Assembly: GCA_018671895.1 (NCBI GenBank)
Contig: JABHGV010000083.1
Span: forward strand, 1 to 37,152
From: Rhodospirillaceae bacterium
GTDB taxonomy: Bacteria; Pseudomonadota; Alphaproteobacteria; Rhodospirillales; JABHCV01
Direction: 5' to 3'
Length of the DNA stretch: 37,152 nucleotides
Positions 1 to 17,660 of the stretch are shown here, in pieces; position 1 is the stretch's first letter; every line of letters begins with the position of its first letter. Both the position numbers and the translations under genes were made by a program. Below the pieces are notes generated by a model. That model worked only from the letters and a program-made list of their open reading frames with translations, did no database searches and was not told the origin of the DNA.

Positions 1-2
1 AT

Positions 3-1796
3 GGACCCGATGCCGAAACCCGCCGTCAGGTTGCCAAAGACCTGACCAAGGCCTTTGCCGAGGCCGACAATGTGGTTGACGAAGACAACTTCATTCAGGA
101 ACCCCACGATGCCTGGCATTTCGTCGTTGATCGCGACAAGGCCATTCGCCGCGGCGTTTCGGTCAAGGACATCAACAGCCAGCTTGAAATGGTGATGGGC
201 ACCTACAAACTGGGTGATCTGAAACTGGGCAATATTCTCGAGCCCCGCCACATCGTCATGCAGGTTCCGATCTCGTTGCGAAATCAGTTCACGCGTCTGG
301 GCCAGCTGCCGATCCCGTCGGGCAAAGGCAAAATGATCCCGCTGTCCGAACTGGGGCATTTCAAGCGTGTCGAGCAGGACCAGATGATCTTCCACAAGGA
401 TCTGCGCCCGGTAGAATTTGTGACCGGCGACGTGACCGGGCGTCTGGCGGCACCTATTTACGGCATGTTCGCGGTTGAAGATCTGCTCGCAGACTACATA
501 TCGCCCGATGGTGTGAAACTGAAATCCCATTATATAGGGCCTCCCGATGACAGCTTCTCCAGCGCATTCGAGTGGACTGGTGAATGGACTGTCACCTACG
601 AGACCTTCCGCGACATGGGGCTCGCCTTCGGTGTCGCCCTTATCCTGATTTATATGCTGGTGATGTGGGAGTTTGGAAACTTCAAGCTGCCCGCCATCAT
701 CATGGCACCAATTCCGCTGACCCTGATCGGTATTATTCCGGGGCACTGGATCTTCAATGCCGAATTCACGGCAACATCGATGATCGGCTTTATCGCGCTA
801 GCCGGGATCATCGTGCGAAATTCAATCCTGCTTGCCGATTTCTCGAAACGCATGGTCGAAGAGGGCATGACCGTACAGGATGCGGTTATCGAAGCGTGCA
901 GGGCGAGAACACGGCCGATTCTGATTACGGCATTGGCTCTGGTTATGGGGTCCAGTGTGATTATCACCGATCCGATCTTCCAGGGTATGGCAATCACGTT
1001 GATGTTCGGCGTCGTTGTCTCGACCCTGCTGACGCTGGTCGTGATCCCGCTGAAATGCGTTCATGCCGACCCCCGGAAGGTCTATAGCTGCAATGGTACA
1101 GACGACACTCTCGTCATCAACGGCACCAACGGTGTCGACACCAAGTCCGAAGCAATTCAGGACGACGATGAACGCAAATTCAAGGTCCTGGGGCTGTTGT
1201 GGAAAGTCCCGGCAATGCTCGGCATCTTCCTGTGGACTGCCGTATCAACGGTATTCAGCTTTGTTGGCCGTTCCGGCTTGTTTAGTAAAACCGGTTCCCT
1301 GATGACGGAAAAAATCATTCCCGCCGTGACCATGACCGGATATGCGCTACGCGCCCTGCCGTATTTCATCATGTTGTTCGTCAAGGACACGGCATCGCGG
1401 ATGCGCGACCGCTTCACCACCAAGGAAGAACCTGCGCCCGCACCAACGCCAACGCCTCAGCCTCAGCCGGCACCTGCGGCCAAGAAAGATCCTGAACCCA
1501 AACCCGCGCCCAAAGCCAAGAAGGCTCCGGCGAAGAGACCCGTGACCAAAAAGGCACCGGTGAAGAAAGCACCTGCGGCCAAGAAACCTACGGCTAAGAA
1601 GCCTGTCGCTAAAAAGGCACCGGTGAAGAAAGCGCCTGCGGCTAAAAAAGCGCCCGCGGCCAAGAAAGCGCCTGCTAAAAAACCGGTCGCCAAGAAACCC
1701 GCCGTCCAGGCTCCCCCGAAGCCCACCGCAAAACCGAGGCCAAAAGGCAAGCGACGGGGCATTCGACTAAAAAGCCGACCCGGGAAAAAAACCTGA
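3..1796 (+). CDS. RND-family efflux transporter, 3' part, with Lys/Pro/Ala-rich C-terminal tail (partial)
   Basis: The reading frame is open from base 3, so the gene begins upstream of the window. The visible part is the C-terminal half of an RND (AcrB/MexB-like) proton-driven inner-membrane pump: a periplasmic porter/docking portion up to about base 590, then membrane helices. Helical stretches include GVALILIYMLVMWEF and the segment with GFIALAGIIVRNSILLADF, the conserved late-TM region of RND pumps, followed by RTRPILITALALVMGS. A normal RND pump ends shortly after the last helix (near base 1050). Here about 240 more residues follow: a polar linker, two further hydrophobic segments (about 1190-1270 and 1315-1385), and a tail of KKAPAKK-type repeats to the stop. 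The RND C-terminus is normally cytoplasmic, so the basic tail probably faces the cytoplasm. Family assignment is firm; the substrate is unknown and the tail's role is inferred. Confidence 0.85.
   Translation, partial: GPDAETRRQVAKDLTKAFAEADNVVDEDNFIQEPHDAWHFVVDRDKAIRRGVSVKDINSQLEMVMGTYKLGDLKLGNILEPRHIVMQVPISLRNQFTRLGQLPIPSGKGKMIPLSELGHFKRVEQDQMIFHKDLRPVEFVTGDVTGRLAAPIYGMFAVEDLLADYISPDGVKLKSHYIGPPDDSFSSAFEWTGEWTVTYETFRDMGLAFGVALILIYMLVMWEFGNFKLPAIIMAPIPLTLIGIIPGHWIFNAEFTATSMIGFIALAGIIVRNSILLADFSKRMVEEGMTVQDAVIEACRARTRPILITALALVMGSSVIITDPIFQGMAITLMFGVVVSTLLTLVVIPLKCVHADPRKVYSCNGTDDTLVINGTNGVDTKSEAIQDDDERKFKVLGLLWKVPAMLGIFLWTAVSTVFSFVGRSGLFSKTGSLMTEKIIPAVTMTGYALRALPYFIMLFVKDTASRMRDRFTTKEEPAPAPTPTPQPQPAPAAKKDPEPKPAPKAKKAPAKRPVTKKAPVKKAPAAKKPTAKKPVAKKAPVKKAPAAKKAPAAKKAPAKKPVAKKPAVQAPPKPTAKPRPKGKRRGIRLKSRPGKKT
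1432..1793 (+). repeat. Low-complexity histone-H1-like repeat tract inside the RND gene
   Basis: This stretch encodes an Ala/Pro-rich lead-in and then repeated KKAPAKK, KKPVAKK and KKAPVKK units, ending in a strongly basic KGKRRGIRLKSRPGKK segment. The DNA repeats imperfectly as gcc-aag-aaa-type triplet blocks, so it may vary in length between strains. Such tails resemble histone H1 and bacterial H1-like DNA-binding proteins; DNA binding is inferred. Confidence 0.7.
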
Positions 1797-1828
1797 CACC
1801 GATACCTAAGAAATTAAGGACGACTTAA

Positions 1829-2557
1829 ATGTCTCAACTCAAGACCCATAAAAGGAAATCGATGATGCGCATGAACCTGTTCGCTGGTGCCCTGCTGTTG
1901 GCCATTCCGACCATTGCTCAGGCAGACGACGCAAAATCAACCCCGACACCTTCCGCCGATAGCGCCAACGCACCTCAGGCCCAGGAAATGATCCCGCCGG
2001 CACCGATGGGCCCTTATTTCTCGCATCGCATGATGCCAAACGGCGGTCCTGCTGGCAGCGGCTTCCCGCCGGTTGGCTTTGATCCGATGTCAGGGGCCGG
2101 TGCCCGTGGGGCTGGCAAAAACCACAATCACTCCCATCAGGGTATGGGTATGGGCGGCGATAATTCCGTCGTCCACGGCATGCCTTATGGGCAGCCCTCT
2201 GGAACGCCTTACGGCGGCATGCCTTATGGCACGCCTTTCAAAGGCAACCCACCGACAGCAGCCGCACCCGGAATGCAGCGCCCCGAAGAACCGGAATGGC
2301 TTGCCAAGCGTCAGACCGAGGTCGAGAAATATCGCGCCGAGCAACAGAAGCGCTATGCCGAACAGCAAAAACAGTTTGCCGAAGCCGCCAGGAGACAGCC
2401 CCCCGCATATGCCCCGCGTGGTTATGGTGCTCCCTATGGCGCACCGCAATTTCGTCCGGGATACGGCCCCGGTTACAATTCCCCGTACCGCGCACCCTAT
2501 CGTGCACCGTACGGCGCTCCGTATGGATACGCACCGCAACCCAGACCCGCTTACTGA
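1829..2557 (+). CDS. Secreted Pro/Gly/Tyr-rich low-complexity protein with a charged helix
   Basis: I do not recognise a named family. The protein of 242 residues begins with a basic stretch and a Sec signal peptide (MNLFAGALLLAIPTIAQA, then DD), so it is probably periplasmic. The middle is rich in Pro, Gly, Met and His; a charged helical stretch (about residues 158-190, TEVEKYRAEQQKRYAEQQKQ) could form a coiled coil; the C-terminus repeats APYGAPYG and YRAPYRAPYG units. The same PYG-type repeats occur in the globule-like proteins at 3248 and 10537, suggesting the same structure or compartment. The ATG at 1829 has an AAGGA 9 bases upstream. An ATG at 1862, also behind a GGAA-rich site, would give a more typical signal peptide and is a real alternative. 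The next gene follows after 29 bases. Confidence 0.7.
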   Translation: MSQLKTHKRKSMMRMNLFAGALLLAIPTIAQADDAKSTPTPSADSANAPQAQEMIPPAPMGPYFSHRMMPNGGPAGSGFPPVGFDPMSGAGARGAGKNHNHSHQGMGMGGDNSVVHGMPYGQPSGTPYGGMPYGTPFKGNPPTAAAPGMQRPEEPEWLAKRQTEVEKYRAEQQKRYAEQQKQFAEAARRQPPAYAPRGYGAPYGAPQFRPGYGPGYNSPYRAPYRAPYGAPYGYAPQPRPAY

Positions 2558-2586
2558 ACAAAAAAGGCCGCAAGGGAACCGAGACA

Positions 2587-3117
2587 ATGAGTAACCGTTT
2601 AGCACTGTTGGGCATGATAAGTGTGGCACTGGCCGCTGGCCCCGCCGTCGCGGCGGATAGCAATCCGTGGCGTGTGGTCCAGCCTGCACACGGAACGGTA
2701 CAGATGTCCGGTCCGGGCGCATCAGAAACCCCGCAAAGAGAACAGAAACCGCCGCTTTACGGTGGCTACACCTTTGCGCCCATCAATACCGACGCCACCA
2801 AGCCGAGAACGACCCCATATATGTATCAAGGGCCCGCCCGACAGATGCCGCTTGCGGGGACGCAACCCGGATATGGATACGGCGCGCCATACGGTGGCTA
2901 CTCGGTGCCGCTGGTTGCAGGTATTGGACACCCCGCTGGTCTGGGCGCATACCCCGGATACCCCGGTGGTCTTGGTCTGGGTGGATATCCCGGTGGTCTT
3001 GGCGGTCTGGGTGGATACCCCGGCTATCCAGGTGGACTGGGTGGATATCCCGGCGGCTGGGGTGGCAACGGGCTGAATGGTTTATCAGGTCGATTTTCGT
3101 GGATGCCGTTTTGGTAA
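2587..3117 (+). CDS. Secreted Gly/Tyr/Pro-rich repeat protein (GGYPGG repeats)
   Basis: A small (176-residue) exported protein of unknown family. The signal peptide is MSNRLALLGMISVALAAGPAVAA. A middle part has few features; from about residue 95 it becomes PGYGYGAPYGGY and then tandem GG-Y-P-G-G-L units, ending GRFSWMPFW. The start is taken at 2587 because a GGGAA-type ribosome site precedes it and the signal peptide begins there; the same frame is open further upstream but only over the previous gene in another frame. Gly/Tyr-rich secreted repeats of this kind occur in structural or envelope proteins, including sulfur-globule proteins, but this one lacks the F-S-M-x-F-x-G motif of its neighbours. 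A structural role is inferred from composition and context. Confidence 0.7.
   Translation: MSNRLALLGMISVALAAGPAVAADSNPWRVVQPAHGTVQMSGPGASETPQREQKPPLYGGYTFAPINTDATKPRTTPYMYQGPARQMPLAGTQPGYGYGAPYGGYSVPLVAGIGHPAGLGAYPGYPGGLGLGGYPGGLGGLGGYPGYPGGLGGYPGGWGGNGLNGLSGRFSWMPFW
2943..3060 (+). repeat. Imperfect tandem repeats encoding GGYPGGL units
   Basis: Within the gene at 2587 the DNA repeats a block like ggtggatatcccggtggtct with single-base changes, each encoding Gly-Gly-Tyr-Pro-Gly-Gly-Leu or a shorter form. Near-identical direct repeats of this kind are prone to slippage. Confidence 0.75.
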
Positions 3118-3177
3118 TCCCCGGCAACGAATACGACGATGGACTGCGTAATTCTGGGTGAAAGCCTGGTTAAGGGT

Positions 3178-3210
3178 GTTGGAGCTCTCCCCCTCCAACT
3201 TCTTTCTCTC
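3178..3210 (+). terminator. Possible weak terminator before the globule-like gene
   Basis: GTTGGAG (3178-3184) pairs with CTCCAAC (3193-3199) across an 8-base loop, followed by a pyrimidine run (ttctttctctc). The stem is only 7 bp and the run is not pure T, so this may be an attenuator or chance. It lies between the gene ending at 3117 and the one starting at 3248. Confidence 0.3.
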
Positions 3211-3247
3211 ACCAGGGGAAATGACGACACGAAAAGGAGTGCTGAAA

Positions 3248-3718
3248 ATGAAAGCAAGCAAACTGTTTAAGATTCTGGCAGTTGCCGGAATCCTGGGTGT
3301 TGGTTCGTTCGCATCAAGCGATGCTTCCGCATGGGGCTGGGGTAACGGCCCGTGGAGCGGTGGGCCTTGGGGCGGTGGACCCTGGAACAACGGCTGGGGT
3401 AACAACGGCTGGGGTAACAATGGCAATGGCTGGGGCAACGGCAACGGCAGCGGCTGGGGTAACGGCAGCGGCTGGGGCGACGGAGACTTCTCCATGAGCT
3501 TCAAGGGTCGCGGCAATGCCGATAACCGTTTCAACGGTTATAACAACTACAACGGCGGCGGCTACGGCGGCGGTTACGGCGGTGCTCCGTATGGCTATGG
3601 TGGTGCTCCGTATGGTTATGGCGGCGGCGCTCCGGCTCCGTATGGCTACGGCGCTCCGGCTCCGTACGGCTATGCTCCGGCTCCGGCTCCGATTCCGGCT
3701 CCGGCTCCGGCCCAGTAA
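3248..3718 (+). CDS. Sulfur-globule-like secreted Gly/Asn/Trp/Tyr-rich protein
   Basis: This 156-residue protein has a clear Sec signal peptide (residues 1-28, ending SSDASA) followed by WGWGNGPW and repeated W-G-N-N-G units. A short conserved module (GDFSMSFKGRGN, residues 79-90) comes next, then a Tyr/Gly/Ala/Pro tail of GGAPYGYG and APAPYGY repeats. Composition, signal peptide and module resemble sulfur-globule envelope proteins (Sgp family) that coat intracellular sulfur deposits in sulfur-oxidising bacteria; this is recognition by pattern, not by search. The module recurs in the genes at 9403 and 10537. The start at 3248 is fixed by AAAAGGAG eight bases upstream and by the signal peptide. 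It could alternatively be another secreted structural glycine-rich protein. Confidence 0.72.
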   Translation: MKASKLFKILAVAGILGVGSFASSDASAWGWGNGPWSGGPWGGGPWNNGWGNNGWGNNGNGWGNGNGSGWGNGSGWGDGDFSMSFKGRGNADNRFNGYNNYNGGGYGGGYGGAPYGYGGAPYGYGGGAPAPYGYGAPAPYGYAPAPAPIPAPAPAQ

Positions 3719-3731
3719 GCCAATGATGTGC

Positions 3732-3763
3732 ATGGAAGTGCCGCACGGTCGCGGCGCTTCCAT
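3732..3763 (+). terminator. 13-bp stem hairpin after the globule-like gene
   Basis: ATGGAAGTGCCGC (3732-3744) pairs with GCGGCGCTTCCAT (3751-3763) around a 6-base loop, with one G-U pair. No T run follows directly, so it may work as a 3' stabiliser or partial terminator that raises the level of the upstream structural gene relative to downstream genes. Confidence 0.5.
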
Positions 3764-3816
3764 CCATCATCGTATTCAGGCATTTATTTTTTGACTTTCC
3801 ACACGGAAACCAAGCG

Positions 3817-4575
3817 ATGCGCTTAACGCGACCCCTTCTCGCCATCCTTTTGGGCCTCAGTCTTGTCCCGGTAACGGCTGCGGCCAAAGGCGCCAAGTCC
3901 TTTACCGCAACCGCAGTACAGACGGCGCCGAACACACAGTCGCAAAGTGGCAAAATTTTTGTCTCCGACACCGGCACCCGGTTTGAATTTTCTGAATACG
4001 GTCGCGACGTCGTGCAGATTACGCTGACCGACAAGAAACTTATGCGCGTCCTGTTTCCGGCTGATAAATTTTATATTGAAACCACGACTCCGAAAGAGAC
4101 GCCCATCACCGCTGCGAAATCAACGACGCCGTGTCCATCCACTCCGGCCATGGTCTGTAGAAAACTGGGCAATGAAAAATTCGGCACCATGGATGTCGAA
4201 CGCTGGAGCCAGTCAATCACCGGATTAAAGGGCGAAGCAACACTGTGGTGGGACCCGAAACGCAAAATGATCGTGCGTCAGGAATACCCCGATGGTCGCG
4301 TCATGCAAATGCAGCTGTCCAACAAGGACGCCTATAACGGTCGTGACACCGAACGCTGGGATATCTCATACGTCCAGCAGGGCCGGACGATGGCGCGGGC
4401 CGTGCGCCTGATCGACGTCGAACTCGGCATTATCGTCAAGGAACAATCGCCTTCGGGAATGATCCGTGAACTGCGCGACTTAAAGGCAGTCAACGCCTCG
4501 CCTGAATGGTTCACGGTGCCCGACGGCTATCAAAAGATAGAGCCGCCGAAGCCCGAAACACTACAAAAGCAATAA
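3817..4575 (+). CDS. Periplasmic LolA-like / DUF4412-like protein
   Basis: A 252-residue exported protein with signal peptide MRLTRPLLAILLGLSLVPVTAAA. The pattern SGKIFVSDTGTRFEF, then ITLTDKKLMRVLFP, a Cys pair (PCPSTPAMVC), ERWSQS and TLWWDPKRKMIVRQEYPDG is typical of the LolA-like beta-barrel families annotated as DUF4412 or outer-membrane lipoprotein-sorting-like proteins, which bind lipid or hydrophobic ligands in the periplasm. It is unlikely to be LolA itself: the paired cysteines and sequence differ and no lipoprotein-sorting genes are nearby. It lies 32 bases before the ParA-like gene, so they are probably cotranscribed. A role in moving lipid or hydrophobic material to a periplasmic structure would fit but is inference. 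Confidence 0.65.
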   Translation: MRLTRPLLAILLGLSLVPVTAAAKGAKSFTATAVQTAPNTQSQSGKIFVSDTGTRFEFSEYGRDVVQITLTDKKLMRVLFPADKFYIETTTPKETPITAAKSTTPCPSTPAMVCRKLGNEKFGTMDVERWSQSITGLKGEATLWWDPKRKMIVRQEYPDGRVMQMQLSNKDAYNGRDTERWDISYVQQGRTMARAVRLIDVELGIIVKEQSPSGMIRELRDLKAVNASPEWFTVPDGYQKIEPPKPETLQKQ

Positions 4576-4607
4576 CCCGACAAACACGACAGACAAGGAT
4601 GACCGGT

Positions 4608-5216
4608 ATGAAAACCGTGGTGGGAAATTTAAAAGGTGGAACAGGCAAAAGCACCGTTGCCTTCAATCTCGCCTTATGGCTCGCAAACATGGCCCGTCCC
4701 GTGGTCTTGTGCGATCTGGATCCTCAAAACACCCTGCGCGATGCCGTCGATGTGCGGGTCGAAGAAGGCCACATGCCGACGGTCTCGGTTTTTGGCTCGA
4801 TTCCCAAACAGGCCGACGGCGACGTCATTATTGATGTCGGCCTGTCGAACATGGAAGCTGTCAGGGTGGCGCTTGGCCGTGCCGATCGGGTGTTGATTCC
4901 GGTAACCCCCAGTCAGGCCGACGTATGGGCGACCCAGCAATTCCTCGACATCATCGACGACAGCACCAAGGGCGGCAAGCGTCCGGATGTTATCACCTTC
5001 CTGAACCGTGCCGACACCCATCCGGCGGCCACGGAAAACGCCGAAACCCAGGGTGTCCTGCAAGAAATTCCGGGGATGACCGTGCTCGACAACAAGCTTT
5101 CCCAACGCATGGCGTTCCGCCGTTCGTTTAGTGAAGGCATGGGCGTATTCGAACTGGAGCCGCGCGGCAAGGCGGCGATTGAATTGAACGCTTTGGCCGA
5201 AGCCCTGTTCGCCTGA
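4608..5216 (+). CDS. ParA/MinD-family ATPase (small, McdA/PpfA-like)
   Basis: The 202-residue protein is a stand-alone Walker-type ATPase of the ParA/MinD superfamily. It has the deviant Walker A motif KGGTGKST (residues 9-16) with the signature lysine K9 that marks dimerising ParA/MinD proteins, a VVLCDLDPQNT switch I segment and a DVIIDVG Walker B segment. There is no N-terminal DNA-binding helix-turn-helix and no ParB gene beside it, which fits small orphan ParAs that position protein cargo (carboxysomes, chemosensory arrays) on the nucleoid rather than plasmid partition proteins. The ATG at 4608 has AAGG nine bases upstream; the ATG at 4599 would leave almost no spacing. Its genes on either side encode a periplasmic protein and a TPR membrane protein, so the cargo may be the structure built by this locus. 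Confidence 0.82.
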   Translation: MKTVVGNLKGGTGKSTVAFNLALWLANMARPVVLCDLDPQNTLRDAVDVRVEEGHMPTVSVFGSIPKQADGDVIIDVGLSNMEAVRVALGRADRVLIPVTPSQADVWATQQFLDIIDDSTKGGKRPDVITFLNRADTHPAATENAETQGVLQEIPGMTVLDNKLSQRMAFRRSFSEGMGVFELEPRGKAAIELNALAEALFA

Positions 5217-5249
5217 GCGCAAAACTGATTACTGACTGGAGATTACACA

Positions 5250-6077
5250 ATGGCCGTTATTCGCTGGATCCTGACTCATTTGATGATCATTTTCGCCGCC
5301 GTACTGGTGGTTTCCGGAATCGTCTACAAGGATGAAATCCAGGTAGAACTGAAAGAGCTTGGCATTATCAAGGAACTCGTAAGGGCCGAGAGCGAGCAAA
5401 AATCTGCTGCCATGGCGGCACCCGCAGCCAAAGCAACGACCCCGGCTCCGGCCCCAGTGGCAGTTGCTGTGGCACCGACTCCGGCCCCAGTTGCCGCACC
5501 AGCTCCAACCCCAGCCCCGGCCCCAGTGGCTGCACCAGCCCCGACCCCGGCCCCGGCCCGCATGCACAGCCCGCAACCGAACGTCCGCAAGCATCCCCAT
5601 ACTCAACGGACCCATCCGCAGCAAGCCGCACAGATGATGCAGCACAGGTCCCAGGGACATCACAAATCGCACAAAAACAAATCGAGCAATCATCATGCGT
5701 CCGCCCCCGCCATCGACGATGCAGTGAAGACAAAATGGGTCGCCGCGCGTACCGCTTTCTGGCGTCGCGATTTGGCGGGTGCCGAAAAGCTGTACAAAGA
5801 ACTGCTAGAGGCCAGCAAGGAAGCCGACATCGCCGGTGAACTGGGCAACATCTACTTGATGCAGCGCCGCCCCAAAGAAGCTACTGACATGTACTTCGAA
5901 GCGGCGAACAGGCTGCTTGGTGGCGAGCATCCGATGCACGCACGCAAGGTTATCAGCACCCTGCGCCGTCTCGATCCTGAAAAAGCCGAACAGGTCCGTC
6001 AGAAAATCCGGGAACACCACAAAACAGAACACGGTGGTCATACAGAACCCGCCCAAATAAAGGAGAACACTAAATGA
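5250..6077 (+). CDS. Membrane-anchored TPR-like protein with Ala/Pro linker and His-rich segment
   Basis: This 275-residue protein starts with one membrane helix (about residues 9-26, LMIIFAAVLVVSGIVY). A long Ala/Pro linker (about 58-104, repeated PAPAPVA) follows, then a His-rich stretch (about 109-150). A C-terminal helical-repeat region (about 155-245) has TPR-like features: WVAARTAFWRRDLAGAEKLY, then ELGNIYLMQRRPKEATDMYFEA. TPR domains bind partner proteins. The linker suggests the domain is held away from the membrane; which side it faces is not certain. It follows the ParA-like gene by 33 bases with a GGAG site before the ATG and overlaps the next gene by 4 bases, so all three are probably one operon. 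It could be the adaptor between ParA and its cargo; this is inferred. Confidence 0.7.
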   Translation: MAVIRWILTHLMIIFAAVLVVSGIVYKDEIQVELKELGIIKELVRAESEQKSAAMAAPAAKATTPAPAPVAVAVAPTPAPVAAPAPTPAPAPVAAPAPTPAPARMHSPQPNVRKHPHTQRTHPQQAAQMMQHRSQGHHKSHKNKSSNHHASAPAIDDAVKTKWVAARTAFWRRDLAGAEKLYKELLEASKEADIAGELGNIYLMQRRPKEATDMYFEAANRLLGGEHPMHARKVISTLRRLDPEKAEQVRQKIREHHKTEHGGHTEPAQIKENTK

Positions 6078-6661
6078 CCTTCCTGAGGAATCTTCTCGCC
6101 ATTGTCGGCATTGCCACGATTTTACTTTTTGCCGCCGTCAGCCCGGCGATCTTTGAAGTCAAATCCCGTATGGACCAGTTCGACCCCAAGGCCATGGATA
6201 CCTACATCGACATGTTCCAGAAGATCCTGGAAACGGGAAATGCCGCCGAAGCAACTGTGTGGAAAGCGCAGGTTGAGGAAGGTCTCAGCTTTGATGAAGT
6301 TAATGAAACGATCCTGTTCGTCGCCAATGAACACAACATCAAAAATGTTGGCGAGCTGCCACTGTATAAACAGGTTGAGTCTATGAGCGGAAAGCCTTAC
6401 AGACATGCAAAGATTTACATGTTCTGCAATGCAATGACCGCGGCGCGCATGCTTGATTACAGCGACGCCTATGGTGCCTATCTTCCCTGCCGGGTTTCGC
6501 TGATAGAAGACAAACAAGGACGGATGTGGCTGTACACGCTGAACATGGACCCGATGATCCATGGCGGACTGCCACTGCCGGATGCACTGAAGACAGAGGC
6601 CCTTGAAGTTAAAGCCATTATGCTTGATGTGCTGAAACGGGGCGCCAGCGGCGAATTTTAA
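6074..6661 (+). CDS. DUF302-domain membrane-anchored protein
   Basis: This 195-residue protein has an N-terminal hydrophobic segment (residues 4-26, an uncleaved anchor or signal peptide). The C-terminal half matches the DUF302 pattern: MSGKPYRHAKIYMFCNA (about residues 98-114), a helix with ARMLDYSDAYGAYLPCRVSL, then IEDKQGRMWLYTLNMDPMI. DUF302 proteins are small alpha/beta domains of unclear function, frequent in sulfur- and metal-handling bacteria. The two cysteines (in FCNA and LPCRV) sit at the usual DUF302 positions. The start overlaps the previous stop as ATGA, and AGGAG lies 8 bases upstream, so it is translated together with the TPR gene. Confidence 0.75.
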   Translation: MTFLRNLLAIVGIATILLFAAVSPAIFEVKSRMDQFDPKAMDTYIDMFQKILETGNAAEATVWKAQVEEGLSFDEVNETILFVANEHNIKNVGELPLYKQVESMSGKPYRHAKIYMFCNAMTAARMLDYSDAYGAYLPCRVSLIEDKQGRMWLYTLNMDPMIHGGLPLPDALKTEALEVKAIMLDVLKRGASGEF

Positions 6662-6687
6662 TCGCCCGACACGGAGTTGTTAAGAGA

Positions 6688-8217
6688 ATGCTTTTCAATC
6701 GCCAGGATATTCCCCTGACAGAGCGCCTGAACAACCTTCAGGAACACCTTCAGGAAGAACACCCTGACCTGCTGCAAGTGCTGCCAACTTATCGGCAAAT
6801 GGACAAGGTTCTAAACCGCCTTGGCCTGCTCGATGCCGACGAATCCCTGGCGACGCAGATTACCTGGTGGCCATTGATCAGTGTCCTCGGCACCTTTTCA
6901 TCGGGGAAATCGACGTTCATCAATTCCCTGCTCGGCGAAAAGCTGCAAAAGACCGGCAATCAGGCCGTCGACGATAAGTTCACCGTTGTCAGTTACTCCC
7001 ACCACGACGCCACCCGCACCCTGCCCGGCACGGCACTGAACAACGATCCCCGGTTTCCGTTCTTTCGCATCGGCGAGGAAATCGACAAGGTGTCCTCTGG
7101 CGAAGGCAAGCGCATCGACAACTACCTGCAACTGAAGACGTCTTCGGCGGAAACCCTCAAGGGCCGCACCCTGATTGACTCGCCGGGGTTCGATGCCGAC
7201 GACCAGCGGCGGTCGACCCTGCGGCTGACCGACCACATCATCGACATTTCGGATCTGGTGCTGATCTTCTTCGATGCCCGTCATCCGGAACCCGGTGCCA
7301 TGCAGGACACACTGGCGCATCTGGTTAAGGCATCGTCGGGCCGTTCGGATTCAAACAAGTTCCTGTACGTGCTCAATCAAATCGACACCACGGCGCGTGA
7401 AGACAATCCGGAAGAAGTGGTCGCCGCATGGCAGCGTGCACTGGCCCAGGCCGGCCTGACCGCCGGGCGTTTCCTGTGCATCTATAACGAAGAAGCCGCC
7501 TACCCCATCGTCGACGAGGCGCTCCGCGAACGCTATCAGCGCAAGCGCGATATCGACATGAAAGAAATCACCAGCCGCATCGGCGAGGTCGAGATCGAAC
7601 GCAGCTATCGCATCGTCAGTTCGCTGGAAGATGCCGCACGCGGTATCGAACGAGACGTCATCCCGGCCCTTGAAAAAGCCATGGGGTTCTGGCGCAAGGT
7701 TACCCTGGCCGGCAACATCGTCGGTGTCGGTGCTGCCGCAGCACTCGCTTACGGAGCGATTACATTGTTCGGCATTGATGCCCTGCAAGCCCTGTTCAAC
7801 AGCATTCAAGGCTACATTACCGGCGTCTTGGCCCTTATCGCCGCCGTTGGTGTCGTCGGCATTTCGTGGCATTACCTGATGCGCAATCTGGCGGCCCGTT
7901 TCGTCGTCAGCCGCCTTGCGGAACGGTTCGGCGATCAGGAATTGAACCTGCGCGGCGCGTTCCTTAAAACCACCAACCCGTGGCGGTCAATCTTCAGCGG
8001 CGGCATCGCCGGATGGGGAAAGACGACAAAGTCCATGATTGGTGATATCTTGCAAGAGATCGAAGGGCACATTCAGCGTCTCAACGATCAACACACCGAC
8101 CCGTCCGGGCGCAAGCATGCATCCAACGAAGGCGACATGGAAACCAGCTTCGTGCCGGTTGCCGCACCCGCCGTTTCCATGCCGGATTCACAAGCCGTAA
8201 ATGCATCGGCTGAATAA
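6688..8217 (+). CDS. Dynamin-like GTPase with two central membrane segments
   Basis: The 509-residue protein carries a dynamin-type GTPase domain: G1 P-loop GTFSSGKS (residues 68-75), an extended G2/switch region, G3 DSPG (164-167) and G4 NQID (230-233). The spacing and SSGKST form are typical of bacterial dynamin-like proteins and related large GTPases. After a helical region, two hydrophobic stretches (about 333-358 and 366-392) would form a membrane hairpin like the paddle of bacterial dynamins. The C-terminal part (about 400-470) is again helical and the last 40 residues look disordered. Such proteins bind, tubulate or fuse membranes from the cytoplasmic side. Its place 26 bases after the DUF302 gene suggests it remodels the inner membrane for the structure made by this locus. 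Cargo and membrane are inferred. Confidence 0.8.
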   Translation: MLFNRQDIPLTERLNNLQEHLQEEHPDLLQVLPTYRQMDKVLNRLGLLDADESLATQITWWPLISVLGTFSSGKSTFINSLLGEKLQKTGNQAVDDKFTVVSYSHHDATRTLPGTALNNDPRFPFFRIGEEIDKVSSGEGKRIDNYLQLKTSSAETLKGRTLIDSPGFDADDQRRSTLRLTDHIIDISDLVLIFFDARHPEPGAMQDTLAHLVKASSGRSDSNKFLYVLNQIDTTAREDNPEEVVAAWQRALAQAGLTAGRFLCIYNEEAAYPIVDEALRERYQRKRDIDMKEITSRIGEVEIERSYRIVSSLEDAARGIERDVIPALEKAMGFWRKVTLAGNIVGVGAAAALAYGAITLFGIDALQALFNSIQGYITGVLALIAAVGVVGISWHYLMRNLAARFVVSRLAERFGDQELNLRGAFLKTTNPWRSIFSGGIAGWGKTTKSMIGDILQEIEGHIQRLNDQHTDPSGRKHASNEGDMETSFVPVAAPAVSMPDSQAVNASAE

Positions 8218-8263
8218 CGCCCCGTTTCGGGTGCAACAACAAGAATACGTATAAGGATTGATT

Positions 8264-8599
8264 GTGTACAAAAGAGTCAACAACAGCCGTAGCATGGTGG
8301 TCGCCATTATCGGCATCGTCCTGGTCATGAGCATCTTCACATGGCTGATGTACGGAATATCCCAAAGCATCCACACAATGACCGAAACCATGGTCAGACT
8401 AGGCCATGACGTTAACACCATGACCCAGGTGCAGAAGGTGATGGTTCATGACATTGGCGTGATGACCAAGAACACCACCAGCATGCAGAATTCCGCCCAG
8501 AATATGAATGCCAGCATGTCGCGCATGGGCTACGACGTCGGTCGCTCGTCGCGTATGTTCTCTTCACCAATGAATTATTTCTGGAATATGGGCCAGTAA
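8264..8599 (+). CDS. Small Met-rich single-pass membrane protein
   Basis: No family recognised. The 111-residue protein has one N-terminal membrane helix (about residues 10-32, MVVAIIGIVLVMSIFTWLMYGI). A long Met-rich amphipathic helix follows (IHTMTETMVRL, then VNTMTQVQKVMVHDIGVM and MQNSAQNMNASMSRMGYD), suitable for a coiled coil or membrane-surface helix. The start is GTG at 8264, six bases after AAGGA; a TTG at 8258 is too close to that site. It ends one base before the convergent gene's stop. It follows the dynamin-like gene by 46 bases and may be its membrane partner, but this is only suggested by position. Confidence 0.7.
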   Translation: MYKRVNNSRSMVVAIIGIVLVMSIFTWLMYGISQSIHTMTETMVRLGHDVNTMTQVQKVMVHDIGVMTKNTTSMQNSAQNMNASMSRMGYDVGRSSRMFSSPMNYFWNMGQ

Positions 8600-8600
8600 A

Positions 8601-9152
8601 TCAGGCCAGTTTCAGCAGCTCCAGGATACCCTGTTTTTTCTTTTCCGGGGCCGGGACATACTGCTCGATGATACGGGTGACGGCCTTGCCGTCGATTTCC
8701 ATCTCGCCCGCTTCTTCATGCTCGAAGAAGAACTCGGCCACCGGCAGGATCGCATCATGGACCTGCTGGTCAGCAAACATTTCCTGGGTCTTGTCTTCCA
8801 GATCAAACAGGATTTCTTCTGAATCGTAATCGTCTTCGCCGTACAGCGCTTCAAGAATGCGGGTGATCTCGTCAATCCGCGATATGTCGCCGGAACAACA
8901 CGAACTGTGTCCGCAGATCATTTCTTCTGCGGTCTGCCCGCCGAATAGTTCCAGCACCCTGTTCTCGAGCGTCTCGATAAATGAATCCCAGTTGTGACTG
9001 GCAAAGGCCTTTTCCGCCAACATCATTGGCGGGCGTGGCAGCATGATAATGGATGTAATTTGTTGCCCGAGCAGATACGCCGTAATGGCGTGTCCCGCCA
9101 TATAGACGGAAAGACGATAGGCTTCGTCATCGCAATCAAGCGTCTCGGTCAT
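8601..9152 (-). CDS. Degenerate FtsH/M41-like peptidase homologue, probably inactive
   Basis: The 183-residue protein resembles the M41 peptidase domain of FtsH without its AAA ATPase or membrane segments. SVYMAGHAITAYLLGQQIT (from residue 15) aligns with the FtsH zinc site HEAGHA, but the first His and catalytic Glu are replaced by Tyr17 and Met18; only His21 remains. Further on, LFGGQTAEEMICG (from residue 69) matches the FtsH LLGGRAAEE motif, and Asp89 in GDISRID sits where FtsH has its third zinc ligand. With two key residues missing, proteolysis is unlikely; it may be an adaptor or substrate-binding pseudo-enzyme. The C-terminal part is acidic. It runs convergently towards the Met-rich gene. 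The match is by motif reading; the loss of residues is seen directly. Confidence 0.65.
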   Translation of the reverse strand: MTETLDCDDEAYRLSVYMAGHAITAYLLGQQITSIIMLPRPPMMLAEKAFASHNWDSFIETLENRVLELFGGQTAEEMICGHSSCCSGDISRIDEITRILEALYGEDDYDSEEILFDLEDKTQEMFADQQVHDAILPVAEFFFEHEEAGEMEIDGKAVTRIIEQYVPAPEKKKQGILELLKLA

Positions 9153-9402
9153 ATTGTCACAGTCATTTTATTCTTTTGCCCGCCCAGCTTACCAAGGTGT
9201 GACCGATGGAATACGAATCCCTTCCGTTAACCAAGTCTAGCAACTTATGGCGAATGCATACACTGCAATTATTTGGACCGTTTAGTGGTGTGGCCACGCC
9301 TGACACTGGCCCTCTTCACACCATTTTGGAATCCTCAGCATCTTGACTAGGTCAGGCGGATGCCGAGGTCGTAACAGGAACTCCCACCGAAGTGGGGACT
9401 GC
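9153..9402. other. Intergenic region with two RNA-hairpin sequences
   Basis: No gene is evident here. Downstream of the minus-strand gene ending at 9403 lies a UUCG-tetraloop hairpin (minus strand; stem bases 9383-9387 and 9392-9396). A longer imperfect hairpin follows (CCTC 9333-9336 with GAGG 9365-9368, GCATC 9338-9342 with GATGC 9359-9363, TGAC 9344-9347 with GTCA 9351-9354). Neither has a strong U run, so they are more likely 3'-end stabilising structures than classic terminators. The promoter of the gene at 8601-9152 must also lie here but I cannot place it with confidence. Confidence 0.45.
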
Positions 9403-10362
9403 TTATTTGGTCTTTAGCGGTTGGCCCGGCAGCTTGTAAGCGATCGGACGGGGGGCGCCGTACGGGGCGCCATAGTAAGGACGGTTGTAGCCATACCCAT
9501 TGCCGTTGCCCGAAGCGTTGGACTTGCCAGAGAAGCTCATGGAAAATGAGCCATTGCCATTGCCGAAGCCGTTACCAAAACCGTTGCCATTCCACGGAGC
9601 GTTGCCCCAGGTGTTGCGCGGGTAGTACGGGCGATATCCGTTCGGTGCAACCGGACGCTGAACTGCAACCATTCTCGGGGCCGCCTTCGGGGCCACGGTG
9701 GCGACCTTGGCGGGAACCATCACTGGTGCCATTCTAGCGGGGACCATCACTGGTGCCATAGCAACCGGCCTCATTGCCGGGAACTGCTGAACGGGAGCAG
9801 GAGCCGCAGCCGTTTCGACGACGTCGGTGTTCATATCCTTGTTCATCAACTCAGCGACCTTGGAAACCGTGCTGTCATAGGCAGATACGATGACATTTGT
9901 ATTCGCAGCAGCGGCACCGGCCAGCAGCACGACGGCGATTGCAGGAATCAAGACCTTCGGCTTTGAAACCGTGGTCTTTGCCGACTTGAACTTGCCCATG
10001 GCCATGGCGGCAATGGCAGGATCAATCTTCAGCTTGTCGGTCATTTTCTTGTCAGCGGTTTTGCTTTCAGCGGTTTTGCCTTCAGTTTTCTTTTCAGCAG
10101 TCTTGCTTTCAGCTTTCTTTTCAGCTTTCGGTGCGACTTTCTCGACCTTGGCATCAAGGTGTTTCACCGGCGCGTTGCCATCAACGATGGACTTGGCCGA
10201 AGCGATAACTCGCTCAGCGCGAGCCGCACCAAAGCCAGGAACCTTGCCCAGCTTTGCGGCAGATGTCTTGGCGATGTCTTCGATGCTCGAGAAGCCGGCT
10301 TCGTTCAGCTTAACGGCGGCGGCTTTGCCGATGCCGGGGATGTTTGTCAAAGTATTGCTCAT
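9403..10362 (-). CDS. Helix-hairpin-helix / transmembrane / globule-tail fusion protein
   Basis: This 319-residue protein joins three parts. Residues 7-57 are two helix-hairpin-helix units (NIPGIGKAAAVKLNEAG and KVPGFGAARAERVIASA), as in DNA- or RNA-binding HhH domains. Residues 66-110 form a Lys/Glu/Thr linker of repeated AESKTAEKK type. A membrane helix follows (about 137-157, VLIPAIAVVLLAGAAAA). The C-terminal part has Pro/Val repeats (twice MAPVMVPA, 202-218) and the globule-type module GSFSMSFSGKSN (271-282) in a Gly/Asn/Tyr-rich tail. There is no N-terminal signal peptide, so the expected topology is HhH in the cytoplasm and globule tail in the periplasm. That would make it a link between cytoplasmic nucleic acid and an external inclusion. 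The start has AGGA about 8 bases upstream. Confidence 0.75.
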   Translation of the reverse strand: MSNTLTNIPGIGKAAAVKLNEAGFSSIEDIAKTSAAKLGKVPGFGAARAERVIASAKSIVDGNAPVKHLDAKVEKVAPKAEKKAESKTAEKKTEGKTAESKTADKKMTDKLKIDPAIAAMAMGKFKSAKTTVSKPKVLIPAIAVVLLAGAAAANTNVIVSAYDSTVSKVAELMNKDMNTDVVETAAAPAPVQQFPAMRPVAMAPVMVPARMAPVMVPAKVATVAPKAAPRMVAVQRPVAPNGYRPYYPRNTWGNAPWNGNGFGNGFGNGNGSFSMSFSGKSNASGNGNGYGYNRPYYGAPYGAPRPIAYKLPGQPLKTK

Positions 10363-10422
10363 GGGTGAATTCCTATGCTTGGTCTGTTTGTCTAAATCTG
10401 AGGACTCAAGTTACTAAAAATT

Positions 10423-10437
10423 CCGATTAATAATCGG
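10423..10437 (-). promoter_or_regulatory. Perfect inverted repeat upstream of the HhH-globule gene
   Basis: CCGATTA (10423-10429) and TAATCGG (10431-10437) are exact inverted copies about one central A. They lie 61-75 bases upstream of the minus-strand start at 10362, a position suited to an operator. The central TTAATAA is shared with the larger dyad at 11223-11259 upstream of the neighbouring globule gene. Confidence 0.5.
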
Positions 10438-10465
10438 TGTCCGGATATGGACGGGACTTATAAAT

Positions 10466-10508
10466 TTTTAAAAAAATTTCCAAACACCCGGCCAGTATTG
10501 GCCGGGTG
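10466..10508 (-). terminator. Rho-independent terminator of the two-module globule gene
   Basis: On the minus strand CACCCGGCC (bases 10508-10500) pairs with GGCCGGGTG (10493-10485) over a 6-base loop: 9 perfect G/C-rich pairs. The transcript then runs into a U-rich stretch (bases 10484-10466). It lies 28 bases past the stop of the gene at 10537-11109. Confidence 0.88.
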
Positions 10509-10536
10509 CAAGGAATAAAGAGAGAGAGAAGTCGAC

Positions 10537-11109
10537 TTACTTGGCGTCGGTCTTCGGAGCAACCGGAGCAACCGGGGCATAGCCGTAAGGAGCATAGCCG
10601 TAAGGAGCCTGGCCGTAGTACGGGTTGTTGTAACCGTAACCGTTGCCATTACCGTTGCCAGAAACGTTGGACTTACCGGAGAACCCGATGGAGAAGGAAC
10701 CTTCGCCGTTGCCGAAGCCATTGCCGAAGCCGTTGCCGAAGCCGTTGTTGCCATAAGGGTAGTAACCCGGAGCAACATACTGCGGAGCAACCGGAGCGTT
10801 CAGCGGAGCAGCGGTCTTGGATTCCTTGGAGTCGGTAGCGGTAGCGGAGGTAGCAACCGGAGCACCATAAGGCGCGTAGCCGTAAGGAGCATATCCGTTG
10901 TGGCCGTTGTAACCGTTGTAACCGTTACCACGCATGTTGCTGTTGCCGGAGAAGTTCATGGAGAAGGAACCGTTTCCTTCACCGTTGCCAGCACCGTTGC
11001 CCCAACCATTGTTACCATTTCCCCAGCCCCAAGCGGAGGCGTCGGAAGCGGAAAGAGCGGTGGCACCGATGATGCCGGCGAATGCGATAGCTTTAATCAT
11101 GGTCTTCAT
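10537..11109 (-). CDS. Sulfur-globule-like secreted protein with two repeated modules
   Basis: A 190-residue exported protein with signal peptide (residues 1-26, ending SASDASA) followed by WGWGNGNNGWGNG, very like the beginning of the mature protein at 3248. It carries two copies of the module, GSFSMNFSGNSN (47-58) and GSFSIGFSGKSN (137-148), each preceded by Gly/Asn repeats and followed by YAPYGYAPYG-type tails, so it looks like an internal duplication of one globule unit. The start at 11109 is set by the signal peptide and AAGGGA about nine bases upstream; the frame stays open to 11214 but that part has no coding character. It has its own terminator and a dyad-containing promoter, so it is probably expressed alone. 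Pattern resemblance to Sgp-family sulfur-globule envelope proteins; a search is needed to confirm. Confidence 0.75.
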   Translation of the reverse strand: MKTMIKAIAFAGIIGATALSASDASAWGWGNGNNGWGNGAGNGEGNGSFSMNFSGNSNMRGNGYNGYNGHNGYAPYGYAPYGAPVATSATATDSKESKTAAPLNAPVAPQYVAPGYYPYGNNGFGNGFGNGFGNGEGSFSIGFSGKSNVSGNGNGNGYGYNNPYYGQAPYGYAPYGYAPVAPVAPKTDAK

Positions 11110-11471: not shown

Positions 11472-13385
11472 GCGCCCTCTGGGCAGACGAATCGTCGCCG
11501 TTGTGCCGATGTTCGGCTCACTTTCGATCCCCAGAATCCCGCCATGCATCTCGACAAGATTACGCGTAATCGTCAGTCCAATGCCGGTTCCTTCATGAAC
11601 ACGCGATGTCTGCATCCGCTCTATCTGTGTGAATGGCTGGGTTATTCGGCCAAGGTCTTCCTTGGCAACACCAATACCCGTATCGGAAACGCTAAAATCG
11701 AACCATTGATGTGAAACGTTAACCGATACCGTCACCTCTCCCCTTTCCGGCGTGAACTTGACCGCGTTAGACAACAGGTTGATCAGGCATTGCTTGAAAG
11801 CCCTGTAATCGGCGAACATAGGCGGCAAATCATCGGCTATATTTTTCAGCAACGAAATGTTTTTATCATTTGCCTGTTCTTGAACAAGGCTCAGGCTCTC
11901 ATCTATAAGCCTAACAATATCGATGGATTCCAGTTGCAGTTGATGCGTCCCGGCTTCGATCTTTGACATATGCAAAATATCGTTAACCAGCGATAGCAGG
12001 TGAGTGCCACTGGCATGAATGTCTTCGGCATATTCTACGTGTTTTCTATTACTCCCCTCATCAACGGACTGCAGTTTGATCATTTCCGAAAACCCGAGAA
12101 TGGCATTCAGCGGGGTCCTTAGCTCATGGCTCATGTTGGCCAGGAAATGGGATTTCGCCTCGTTGGCCACTTCCGCGTCCTCGCGGGCTTCCTCTGCAAT
12201 CCGCTCGGCCTCCTTGCGTTCGGTGATTTCGGTGCGAATTCCCACATATTGAAAGGGCTTCCCATCATCGCCAAGGAACGGCACGATCGTCGCCGTGACC
12301 CAATATTCACTGCCGTCTTTCCGTTTATTTTTGACATCCCCCTGCCAGGTATTCCCGCTGGCAATGGTTTGCCACAGTTCCTTAAAAAATTCAGGCGGGT
12401 GCTCGTTGCTTTTTAAAAGTCGGTGGTTCTGACCCAGCAACTCCTCGTTGGAATATCCGCTGATGTCGCAAAACTTGTTGTTAATGTAGGTAATGTTGCC
12501 CTTGACGTCGGTAATGCTGACAATCGCATGCTCATCAAGCGCATGTTTCTGGAACTCCAGGCTCCTCGTTACCTGCTTGCGCAGATCGACTTCCCTCTCC
12601 AGAACCTTGATTGTTTCCAAATGCCTGCCCATGAACGATGCGGCAAGGGCAAGGGCGATCAGCAAGGCCGTGGCCGTCCCAATGCCGATTGCCAGAAGCG
12701 TCGGTGAAGCGCCGGATTCAGATGCCGTGCTTCCTTCTATGGGAATAAAATACGCCGCTTCAATGGCAATGTAATGCATGCCGGAAATAGCGCTCCCCAT
12801 GAAGATACCGCCCAACAGCGATAGCCCGCGACCCGATAGTCCGGGGAATTCATCTGCAAAAATAAATTTTACGTACAGGGACAGAATCGCCATAGCGATG
12901 GCAAAGATGATCGATGCGAAAAACATGACGGGCGAGTAATAAATAACGGCATCCAGTTGCATGGCCGCCATGCCGGAATAATGCATCAGGCCAATACCGG
13001 CGCCCATCAAGCTGCCGCCGATGGCAACCATCGTATGGGTGACCCTGACACGACCGATCACCCATAAAGCCACGGCGCTGGCCAGAACACCGGGAATCAT
13101 CGACAGCAAGGTTATGAACGGGTCGTAAGAAACATTGCAGGGCAAGCTGAACGCCAGCATGCCGACAAAATGCATGGCCCAAACGCCACCGCCCAGTGCC
13201 AGCGCACCCGGCACTAGCCAGACAATTTTATCGTAACCGGTTTCTGCCCGCGCAATCCGCTGGGACAGTTGCAGCGCGGTAAACGAGGCGAATACAGCCA
13301 TCAATACGGACAACAACACCAACGGCATGTTGTACGTATTTAAATAAGCGACAGATAAATCCTGGCCGGATGACAGAAACTGCAT
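11448..13385 (-). CDS. MHYT-PAS hybrid membrane sensor histidine kinase
   Basis: A 645-residue sensor kinase. The N-terminal about 240 residues are an integral-membrane MHYT domain with the repeated motif (AMHFVGMLAF, LMHYSGMAAM, GMHYIAIEAA). MHYT domains are proposed to bind copper and sense O2, CO or NO. Next come a PAS/PAC domain (HAIVSITDVKGNITYINNKF to VGIRTEITERKEAERIAEEA), a HisKA domain with the phosphorylated His in NMSHELRTPLNAI, and a HATPase domain with LINLLSNAVKFTP, DTGIGVAK and GTGIGLTI boxes. There is no receiver domain and no regulator gene next to it, so its partner is elsewhere. The ATG at 13385 starts directly before the first membrane helix. It is separated by 132 bases from the carbonic anhydrase gene upstream. 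Confidence 0.9.
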   Translation of the reverse strand: MQFLSSGQDLSVAYLNTYNMPLVLLSVLMAVFASFTALQLSQRIARAETGYDKIVWLVPGALALGGGVWAMHFVGMLAFSLPCNVSYDPFITLLSMIPGVLASAVALWVIGRVRVTHTMVAIGGSLMGAGIGLMHYSGMAAMQLDAVIYYSPVMFFASIIFAIAMAILSLYVKFIFADEFPGLSGRGLSLLGGIFMGSAISGMHYIAIEAAYFIPIEGSTASESGASPTLLAIGIGTATALLIALALAASFMGRHLETIKVLEREVDLRKQVTRSLEFQKHALDEHAIVSITDVKGNITYINNKFCDISGYSNEELLGQNHRLLKSNEHPPEFFKELWQTIASGNTWQGDVKNKRKDGSEYWVTATIVPFLGDDGKPFQYVGIRTEITERKEAERIAEEAREDAEVANEAKSHFLANMSHELRTPLNAILGFSEMIKLQSVDEGSNRKHVEYAEDIHASGTHLLSLVNDILHMSKIEAGTHQLQLESIDIVRLIDESLSLVQEQANDKNISLLKNIADDLPPMFADYRAFKQCLINLLSNAVKFTPERGEVTVSVNVSHQWFDFSVSDTGIGVAKEDLGRITQPFTQIERMQTSRVHEGTGIGLTITRNLVEMHGGILGIESEPNIGTTATIRLPRGRSGNGQDA

Positions 13386-17637: not shown

Positions 17638-17660
17638 AATCGATTAACCGATGCCGCCTT

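Follow-up and report, generated by a model that had tools for sequence, protein, structure and literature searches.

Of the genes by which cells build, enclose and share out periplasmic sulfur globules, those known to us encode mainly coat proteins. RND exporters with LolA- or LprG-like lipid carriers are known systems, and ParG, the partner of the ATPase ParF, acts via a flexible tail. The main text of PMC10241942 describes ParA partners as acting through a positively charged, disordered N-terminus, and the main text of PMC10386293 places the globules of Allochromatium vinosum in the periplasm. Here we describe a gene module that combines elements of these systems in a 37,152-nucleotide stretch of DNA from a Rhodospirillaceae bacterium (contig JABHGV010000083.1), hereafter the window, which is an entire contig (C62) of a 2.5-Mb draft genome. 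The module joins an RND permease and a small ParA ATPase to sulfur-globule proteins (SGPs). Judging from gene content and conservation, we favour, with slightly better than even confidence, the reading that its ParA positions the periplasmic sulfur globule as cargo, with the tail of the RND permease as the ParA partner.

Ten genes lie head to tail on the plus strand at positions 3-8599, with spacings of mostly 20-130 nucleotides and overlapping open reading frames (ORFs) for the TPR and DUF302 proteins, and three minus-strand genes at 8601-11109 follow directly. Because the contig starts inside the RND gene, this gene is truncated and the adaptor gene would lie outside the window. The window proteins were searched against Pfam and NCBIfam at an E-value of 0.1, and the features are as follows.

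3-1796, plus strand: RND (AcrB-type) permease, C-terminal 597 amino acids only, cut by the contig start (ACR_tran, 156.8 bits)
1752-1772, plus strand: codons of the RRGIRLK motif near the RND C-terminus, matching the motif [R/T/H]RGI[R/Q][L/I/V][K/R/N] of module RNDs
1829-2557, plus strand: GP1, secreted protein rich in G, P and Y, part of it coiled-coil-like (no match in Pfam or NCBIfam at E 0.1)
2587-3117, plus strand: GP2, secreted protein rich in G, P and Y (no match in Pfam or NCBIfam at E 0.1)
3248-3718, plus strand: SGP, sulfur-globule-type protein (PF17228, 26.5 bits, just under the cut-off of 26.7)
3817-4575, plus strand: LolA-like periplasmic carrier with signal peptide (AlphaFold mean pLDDT 87; Foldseek matches LolA3, NE2245 and LolA)
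4599-5216, plus strand: small ParA ATPase (AAA_31, 47.1 bits; MipZ and NF041546 matches)
5250-6077, plus strand: single-pass membrane TPR protein (weak TPR matches; hydrophobic segment 7-25)
6074-6661, plus strand: single-pass membrane DUF302 protein (PF03625, 44.6 bits; hydrophobic segment 8-26)
6688-8217, plus strand: dynamin-like GTPase (Dynamin_N, PF00350, 63.6 bits, cut-off 27; hydrophobic segments 340-358 and 369-387)
8258-8599, plus strand: MetH, Met-rich single-pass membrane protein (homologues in relatives' modules)
8601-9152, minus strand: M41-peptidase-like protein without HExxH (Peptidase_M41, 19.4 bits, under the cut-off)
9403-10362, minus strand: protein with a helix-hairpin-helix (HhH) domain, Lys/Ala-rich linker, membrane helix and C-terminal SGP domain (HHH_5, 59.0 bits; SGP, 35.3 bits)
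10537-11109, minus strand: sulfur-globule protein with two SGP stretches (PF17228, 75.0 bits)

The locus resembles ParA/MinD-family positioning systems (McdA/McdB for carboxysomes, ParF/ParG for plasmids) in the intact Walker motifs of its ParA, whose nearest solved relative is ParF, and it has a candidate partner with a basic, probably disordered terminus, which comes close to the rule in the main text of PMC10241942. It differs in that the role of partner would fall to an RND permease, whose motif is C-terminal, and that the proposed cargo is a periplasmic inclusion beyond the inner membrane; the words "globule", "periplasm" and "RND" do not occur in that main text. With SgpA-D of A. vinosum it shares PF17228 proteins in and around the module and a genome of the rDsr type, whereas the published sgpD stands beside the gene for another RND exporter, if our identification of that locus is right; "partition" and "dynamin" do not occur in the main text of PMC10386293, in which "ParA" was not searched for. 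Like RND exporters with LolA/LprG-like carriers, the module has an RND, an adaptor and a LolA-like carrier in one operon, but it departs from them by the long basic tail with RRGIRLK and by the adjacent ParA. The GTPase shares a Dynamin_N domain and two hydrophobic segments with EHD-type members of the dynamin superfamily; unlike these it has no EH domain among its Pfam matches, and it appears to be accessory in the module. Our literature search, whose scope did not extend to older A. vinosum transcriptome work, returned no earlier description of the module and nothing that joins sulfur globules with nucleoid positioning or with helix-hairpin-helix proteins; the papers returned on DUF302 or TPR proteins in combination with RND and ParA do not, judging by title and abstract, concern globules.

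An earlier note, made from the letters of the window alone, had read this run of genes as a locus that builds and positions an inclusion, possibly a sulfur globule. The components it listed are real, namely ParA, DUF302, dynamin and the Met-rich helix at the scores and positions given above, and so are its globule-type secreted proteins, since two minus-strand ORFs pass the PF17228 cut-off. The gene order is also clearly not unique to this strain. A scan of named genomes for the dynamin gave 80 loci, the best 80 of 560 relatives. These loci include Sedimenticola, Thiodiazotropha, tubeworm and lucinid symbionts, Chromatiales, Magnetovibrio, Magnetococcales and Marinosulfonomonas, which are groups of sulfur oxidisers; the remainder are unplaced drafts, Rhodobacteraceae and two Azospirillum species. 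The module, of which the locus in the window is one arm, is met again in Rhodospirillales-type, Rhodobacterales, Chromatiales-type and Magnetococcales genomes, and because the same order is found in other genera and classes, the combination is not due to chance. According to profiles derived from the loci, the prevailing alphaproteobacterial order is (MetH)-adaptor-RND-secreted proteins-SGP-LolA-ParA-TPR-(DUF302)-dynamin-(M41-like). Most gammaproteobacterial loci with an RND-ParA arm read adaptor-RND-secreted proteins-(LolA)-ParA-(DUF302), divergent beside the dynamin, and in relatives the adaptor that adjoins the RND is of HlyD type.

We counted genes in the 46 fetched loci whose sequence reaches at least 9 kb upstream of the dynamin: RND and ParA are each present in 41, the adaptor in 38 and the LolA-like gene in 25. 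Neither RND nor ParA is present in the other five (L071, L080, L088, L090 and L095), and the genome of L090 carries the RND-ParA arm at a separate site. Drawing 147 genomes of a gammaproteobacterial order, we found a dynamin match in 135, one of them weak. From these we picked 14 with the dynamin hit on contig C1, one such contig being that of L056; RND and ParA lie close to the dynamin in 12, and the other two carry the arm elsewhere. Trees of RND, ParA and dynamin, limited to the 31 loci in which all three proteins clustered, agree with one another (distance r about 0.94). All three show the alpha/gamma split, which leaves a recent transfer of the module into alphaproteobacteria unsupported.

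The tie between the module and sulfur-globule proteins is well supported by gene content and co-occurrence in two orders. The window's genome encodes DsrA (551.9 bits, contig C15) and SoxB (837.8 bits, contig C76), both above curated cut-offs, and an additional SGP on contig C87, in keeping with the guess of a sulfur globule. Across 150 genomes of the window's order, 18 have the dynamin, 13 an SGP over the cut-off and 11 both, so that SGPs occur in 11/18 genomes with the dynamin and 2/132 without it (Fisher p = 1.5e-10, ancestry not corrected). DsrA exceeds its cut-off in 60 of the 150, including 16 of the 18 dynamin genomes (Fisher p = 8e-6, likewise uncorrected for ancestry) and all 13 SGP genomes; in the two dynamin-bearing genomes that lack DsrA (G129 and G142), the dynamin match is split and more distant. 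Within the 60 DsrA-bearing genomes, SGPs are found in 11/16 with and 2/44 without the dynamin (p = 8e-7, again with ancestry uncorrected). The SGP lies within 4 kb of the dynamin in six of the ten other genomes that have both, and on other contigs in four. Rhodobacterales give a second view: the dynamin is strong in four of 292 genomes and weak in a fifth, and the three genomes with an SGP over the cut-off all have the dynamin, within 4 kb of the SGP (p = 1e-6, shared ancestry ignored). DsrA is over its cut-off in eight of the 292, among them all four with a strong dynamin. At the level of loci, 25 from alphaproteobacteria have sequence that covers the region upstream of the LolA-like gene, and all of these but L075 (24 of 25) show an SGP-like ORF in it, called by profile or by composition plus motif. 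We added three gammaproteobacterial loci to this set because an SGP-like ORF is present, and 17 of the 28 SGP-like proteins (27 from relatives plus that of the window) match PF17228 at E 1e-3.

These counts bear on the rival that survives best, which is that the RND, adaptor and LolA-like protein export an envelope lipid or other hydrophobic compound, that ParA distributes the complexes along the cell, and that the sulfur link is indirect, sulfur oxidisers needing a modified envelope and globule proteins being merely operon neighbours. RND, ParA and adaptor are indeed the most constant parts (41, 41 and 38 of the 46 loci, against 25 for the LolA profile), the LolA-like fold suits such a machine, and the SGP profile matches few gammaproteobacterial arms. 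The SGP-like ORF inside the operon in 24/25 alphaproteobacterial loci, the persistence of dynamin/SGP co-occurrence within the DsrA-bearing genomes of the window's order, and the HhH-SGP fusions described below count against it, and we regard this exporter as unlikely, although as the most serious of the alternatives.

The C-terminal motif of the RND and the HhH-SGP fusion are two features absent from the earlier note. The window RND fits the HAE-1 type by its ACR_tran domain and, in relatives, by the partner adaptor. Complete module RNDs carry 123-335 residues beyond the last core helix. In the window RND, the extension beyond residue ~350 has two predicted helices and then a K/A/P-rich tail; its structure model (mean pLDDT 63) places helices at 388-423 and 435-471 after the core, followed by a tail of low confidence. 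An even number of added helices would place the tail in the cytoplasm. In 23 aligned extensions, only R585, G586 and I587 near the C-terminus and a cysteine beside the core are invariant, and the flanking R, R, L and K and two tail prolines are conserved at 90%. From 75 loci with an RND match we removed three that end inside the gene and one duplicate, which gave 71, and left out L070 (an unrelated RND) and one masked tail; the 69 readable distinct module RNDs that result include close relatives and are not independent. All 69 have the motif in a basic C-terminal tail: RRGIRLK in 57, RRGIQLK in three, RRGIRLR, RRGIRLN and RRGIRIK in two each, and TRGIRLK, HRGIRLK and RRGIRVK in one each. ParA lies downstream on the same strand within 8 kb of 67 of them, and the two exceptions have 227 and 2213 nucleotides of contig left. 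Paralogous RNDs in L202-L205 (53-57% identical) lack the motif, and the 16-20 kb fetched around them (5-8 kb downstream) gave no ParA match. More distant paralogues in L120-L125 (41-44% identical) lack the tail altogether.

As for the ParA itself, every one of 16 aligned sequences has KGG[TS]GKST, D40/D42/P43/Q44 and D80, which we take to be a deviant Walker A motif with its signature lysine, Walker A' (D-x-DPQ) and Walker B. Its closest PDB chain is ParF. The basic RND tail comes near the partner rule stated above for ParA proteins, with the difference that it is C-terminal, and the 67/69 concordance makes it a candidate for ParA binding; we infer from these sequence patterns that the tail may be the partner. 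Lys-rich tails as such are ruled out as a marker of a ParA partner by two of the motif-less paralogues (L202:8567-12517 and L203:7831-11754), which have such tails in ParA-less surroundings.

A second rival gives the RRGIRLK tail a different docking partner, namely the dynamin-like GTPase or the nucleoid itself, and ParA a different target. DNA or acidic surfaces can be bound by basic tails, this tail gives a histone-like HC2 match under the cut-off (26.8 of 40 bits), and the dynamin is often adjacent. Yet among 12 gammaproteobacterial genomes without a dynamin match, four keep both motif and ParA (G230, G237, G262 and G297), one has a decayed RND and seven are without a close module RND. Since motif and ParA persist in those four, ParA is, provided that these drafts are complete, a likelier partner of the motif than the dynamin, and the motif-less Lys-rich tails of paralogues away from ParA also speak against this docking, which we consider improbable. 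The least probable rival, that the module expels toxic polysulfide or other reactive sulfur when sulfide is plentiful, with ParA spreading the pumps evenly, fits the RND family, the adaptor and the association with DsrA but leaves the SGP, HhH-SGP and LolA-like parts unexplained, and we noticed no gene for an outer-membrane channel in the module, at which no profile search was aimed.

The HhH-SGP protein of the window has one hydrophobic segment (132-150), and if its SGP domain is periplasmic, its HhH domain would be cytoplasmic. The same architecture occurs in five further genomes, which belong to a single other genus of the order and bring the number to six with the window's; in that genus HHH_5 scores 42-48.5 bits and SGP 34-43.5 bits, all above the cut-offs. 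The hydrophobic segment falls below our threshold of 1.6 in four of these five proteins and was read from the sequence there. The HhH domain suggests that the protein binds DNA, and its domain order makes it a candidate tether between nucleoid DNA and the globule coat. Contig C87 of the window's genome encodes a second HhH-membrane protein adjoining an SGP gene (L185:4380-5921), the outer part of which has GP1-like repeats, as judged by eye.

We can thus propose a mechanism for the ParA-positioned globule. SGP-type and other secreted proteins would form the coat of periplasmic sulfur globules, and the RND, adaptor and LolA-like carrier would work together as an envelope machine, providing or handling some hydrophobic constituent of the globule or of what bounds it. 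The cytoplasmic RND tail ending in RRGIRLK would bind nucleoid-bound ParA and stimulate its ATPase, so that the globule and its envelope machine become distributed over the nucleoid and each daughter cell receives a share. TPR, DUF302 and MetH may form a membrane or periplasmic scaffold, the HhH-membrane-SGP protein may add a second tie from DNA to the globule coat in this lineage, and the dynamin-like GTPase, as an accessory, might shape or sever an inner-membrane pocket. Two features make the suggestion that the locus positions and segregates globules more specific: the motif in the tail, which goes together with ParA, and the membrane protein that joins HhH and SGP. Its fullest form is a transmembrane ParA system in which the tail recruits cytoplasmic ParA, the HhH-SGP protein clamps DNA and the nucleoid partitions a periplasmic inclusion; this we hold to be plausible, with confidence somewhat short of even. 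If true, both the cargo and the adaptor would be of a class new for ParA, in use among sulfur-storing Proteobacteria, including tubeworm and lucinid symbionts, and bacteria would use the chromosome to place an object outside the cytoplasm. The module adds about ten candidate globule genes across many sulfur oxidisers, and an orphan ParA gains a specific candidate partner and a seven-residue motif.

Several observations weigh against this reading. The dynamin/SGP association is not significant inside the eight DsrA-bearing Rhodobacterales (p = 0.14). In the window's order, no SGP exceeds the cut-off in seven of the 18 dynamin genomes, 44 DsrA-bearing genomes have no dynamin, and two SGP-bearing genomes have no dynamin match (G006 and G120, both fragmented drafts); the window's own family is represented in the sample by five members, and all of them have DsrA but neither dynamin nor SGP. 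The SGP profile matches few gammaproteobacterial arms, with other secreted proteins there in the three that we read closely. The four dynamin-less genomes that keep motif and ParA may be incomplete drafts, and in four loci (L080 and L088 of Azospirillum, L071 of Magnetococcales, and L095) a dynamin is present without a close module RND, the best-scoring RND of those genomes being 26-44% identical. Most RND extensions show a single hydrophobic segment in a simple hydropathy scan, so the cytoplasmic placement of the tail is based on the helix pair of the model (pLDDT about 75) and on the positive-inside rule. The motif-less paralogue region L206 has a weaker ParA match about 6 kb from the RND, on the opposite strand. 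Globules appear randomly localised in many species according to the main text of PMC10386293, which counts against strict positioning, not against partition. In a chromosome that we presume to be that of A. vinosum (G190), a long distance separates the dynamin (1.27 Mb) from the RND-ParA arm, and a different RND (24% identity) adjoins the sgpD-like gene.

Three gammaproteobacterial modules encode secreted proteins with repeated [F/Y/W]RP motifs, such as YRFRP, between RND and ParA (L063:1438-3354, L055:1517-4217 and L173:7909-8586). The two of L063 match no Pfam family at E 0.05, and such proteins are possibly globule proteins of another kind. The L206 region, from the same genome as L063, has a MetH-like gene and the weaker ParA match (12264-12827 and 17380-17934) near the RND paralogue, a distant one, and is possibly a second, diverged system.

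G190 carries a gene that fits the description of SgpD in the main text of PMC10386293, and at about 2.01-2.02 Mb it has the order adaptor-RND(RRGIRLK)-FRP-type protein-LolA-ParA-MetH. The placement of sgpD beside the module RND is ruled out, as the RND next to the located sgpD-like gene is 24% identical and about 0.8 Mb away. GP1 gave no significant match to the SgpD-like protein and is at most similar to it in make-up. According to the same main text, A. vinosum is a proven globule former in which SgpD-mCherry on globules and gene replacement have been shown, and with this marker and method the module can be tested practically there.

Two other parts named in the earlier note are the LolA-like carrier and the membrane TPR protein. 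The LolA-like carrier has no Pfam match at E 0.1 and no sequence match in the PDB, but its AlphaFold model matched first to LolA proteins (Foldseek E 2e-6 and probability 1.00 to LolA3, with TM-scores of just 0.36-0.37); further matches include RseB and EPDR1. Its modelled fold suggests that it carries something hydrophobic. The membrane TPR protein does have TPR matches, but these are weak and under Pfam cut-offs.

The part of the dynamin is the weakest: the GTPase is often beside the module, but RND motif and ParA are kept by the four genomes without it. Its closest PDB chains are EHD4 and EHD2. A place at the core of the module is weakened by four loci with dynamin and no close RND and by the four genomes with RND and ParA and no dynamin. 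The dynamin homologues in L080, L088, L095 and L071 are about 52-54% identical. PMC6509183, the one paper returned on sulfur globules together with dynamin, says that SUP05 genomes lack dynamin.

Two small proteins accompany the module. One is conserved beside adaptor and dynamin in gammaproteobacteria (L063:8915-9322, minus strand) and has no Pfam match at E 0.05. The other is the M41-like protein of the window (8601-9152, minus strand), in which M-A-G-H replaces HExxH and which is probably, from its sequence, a non-proteolytic relative; it is conserved beside the module, and in many Rhodobacteraceae loci its gene sits after the dynamin.

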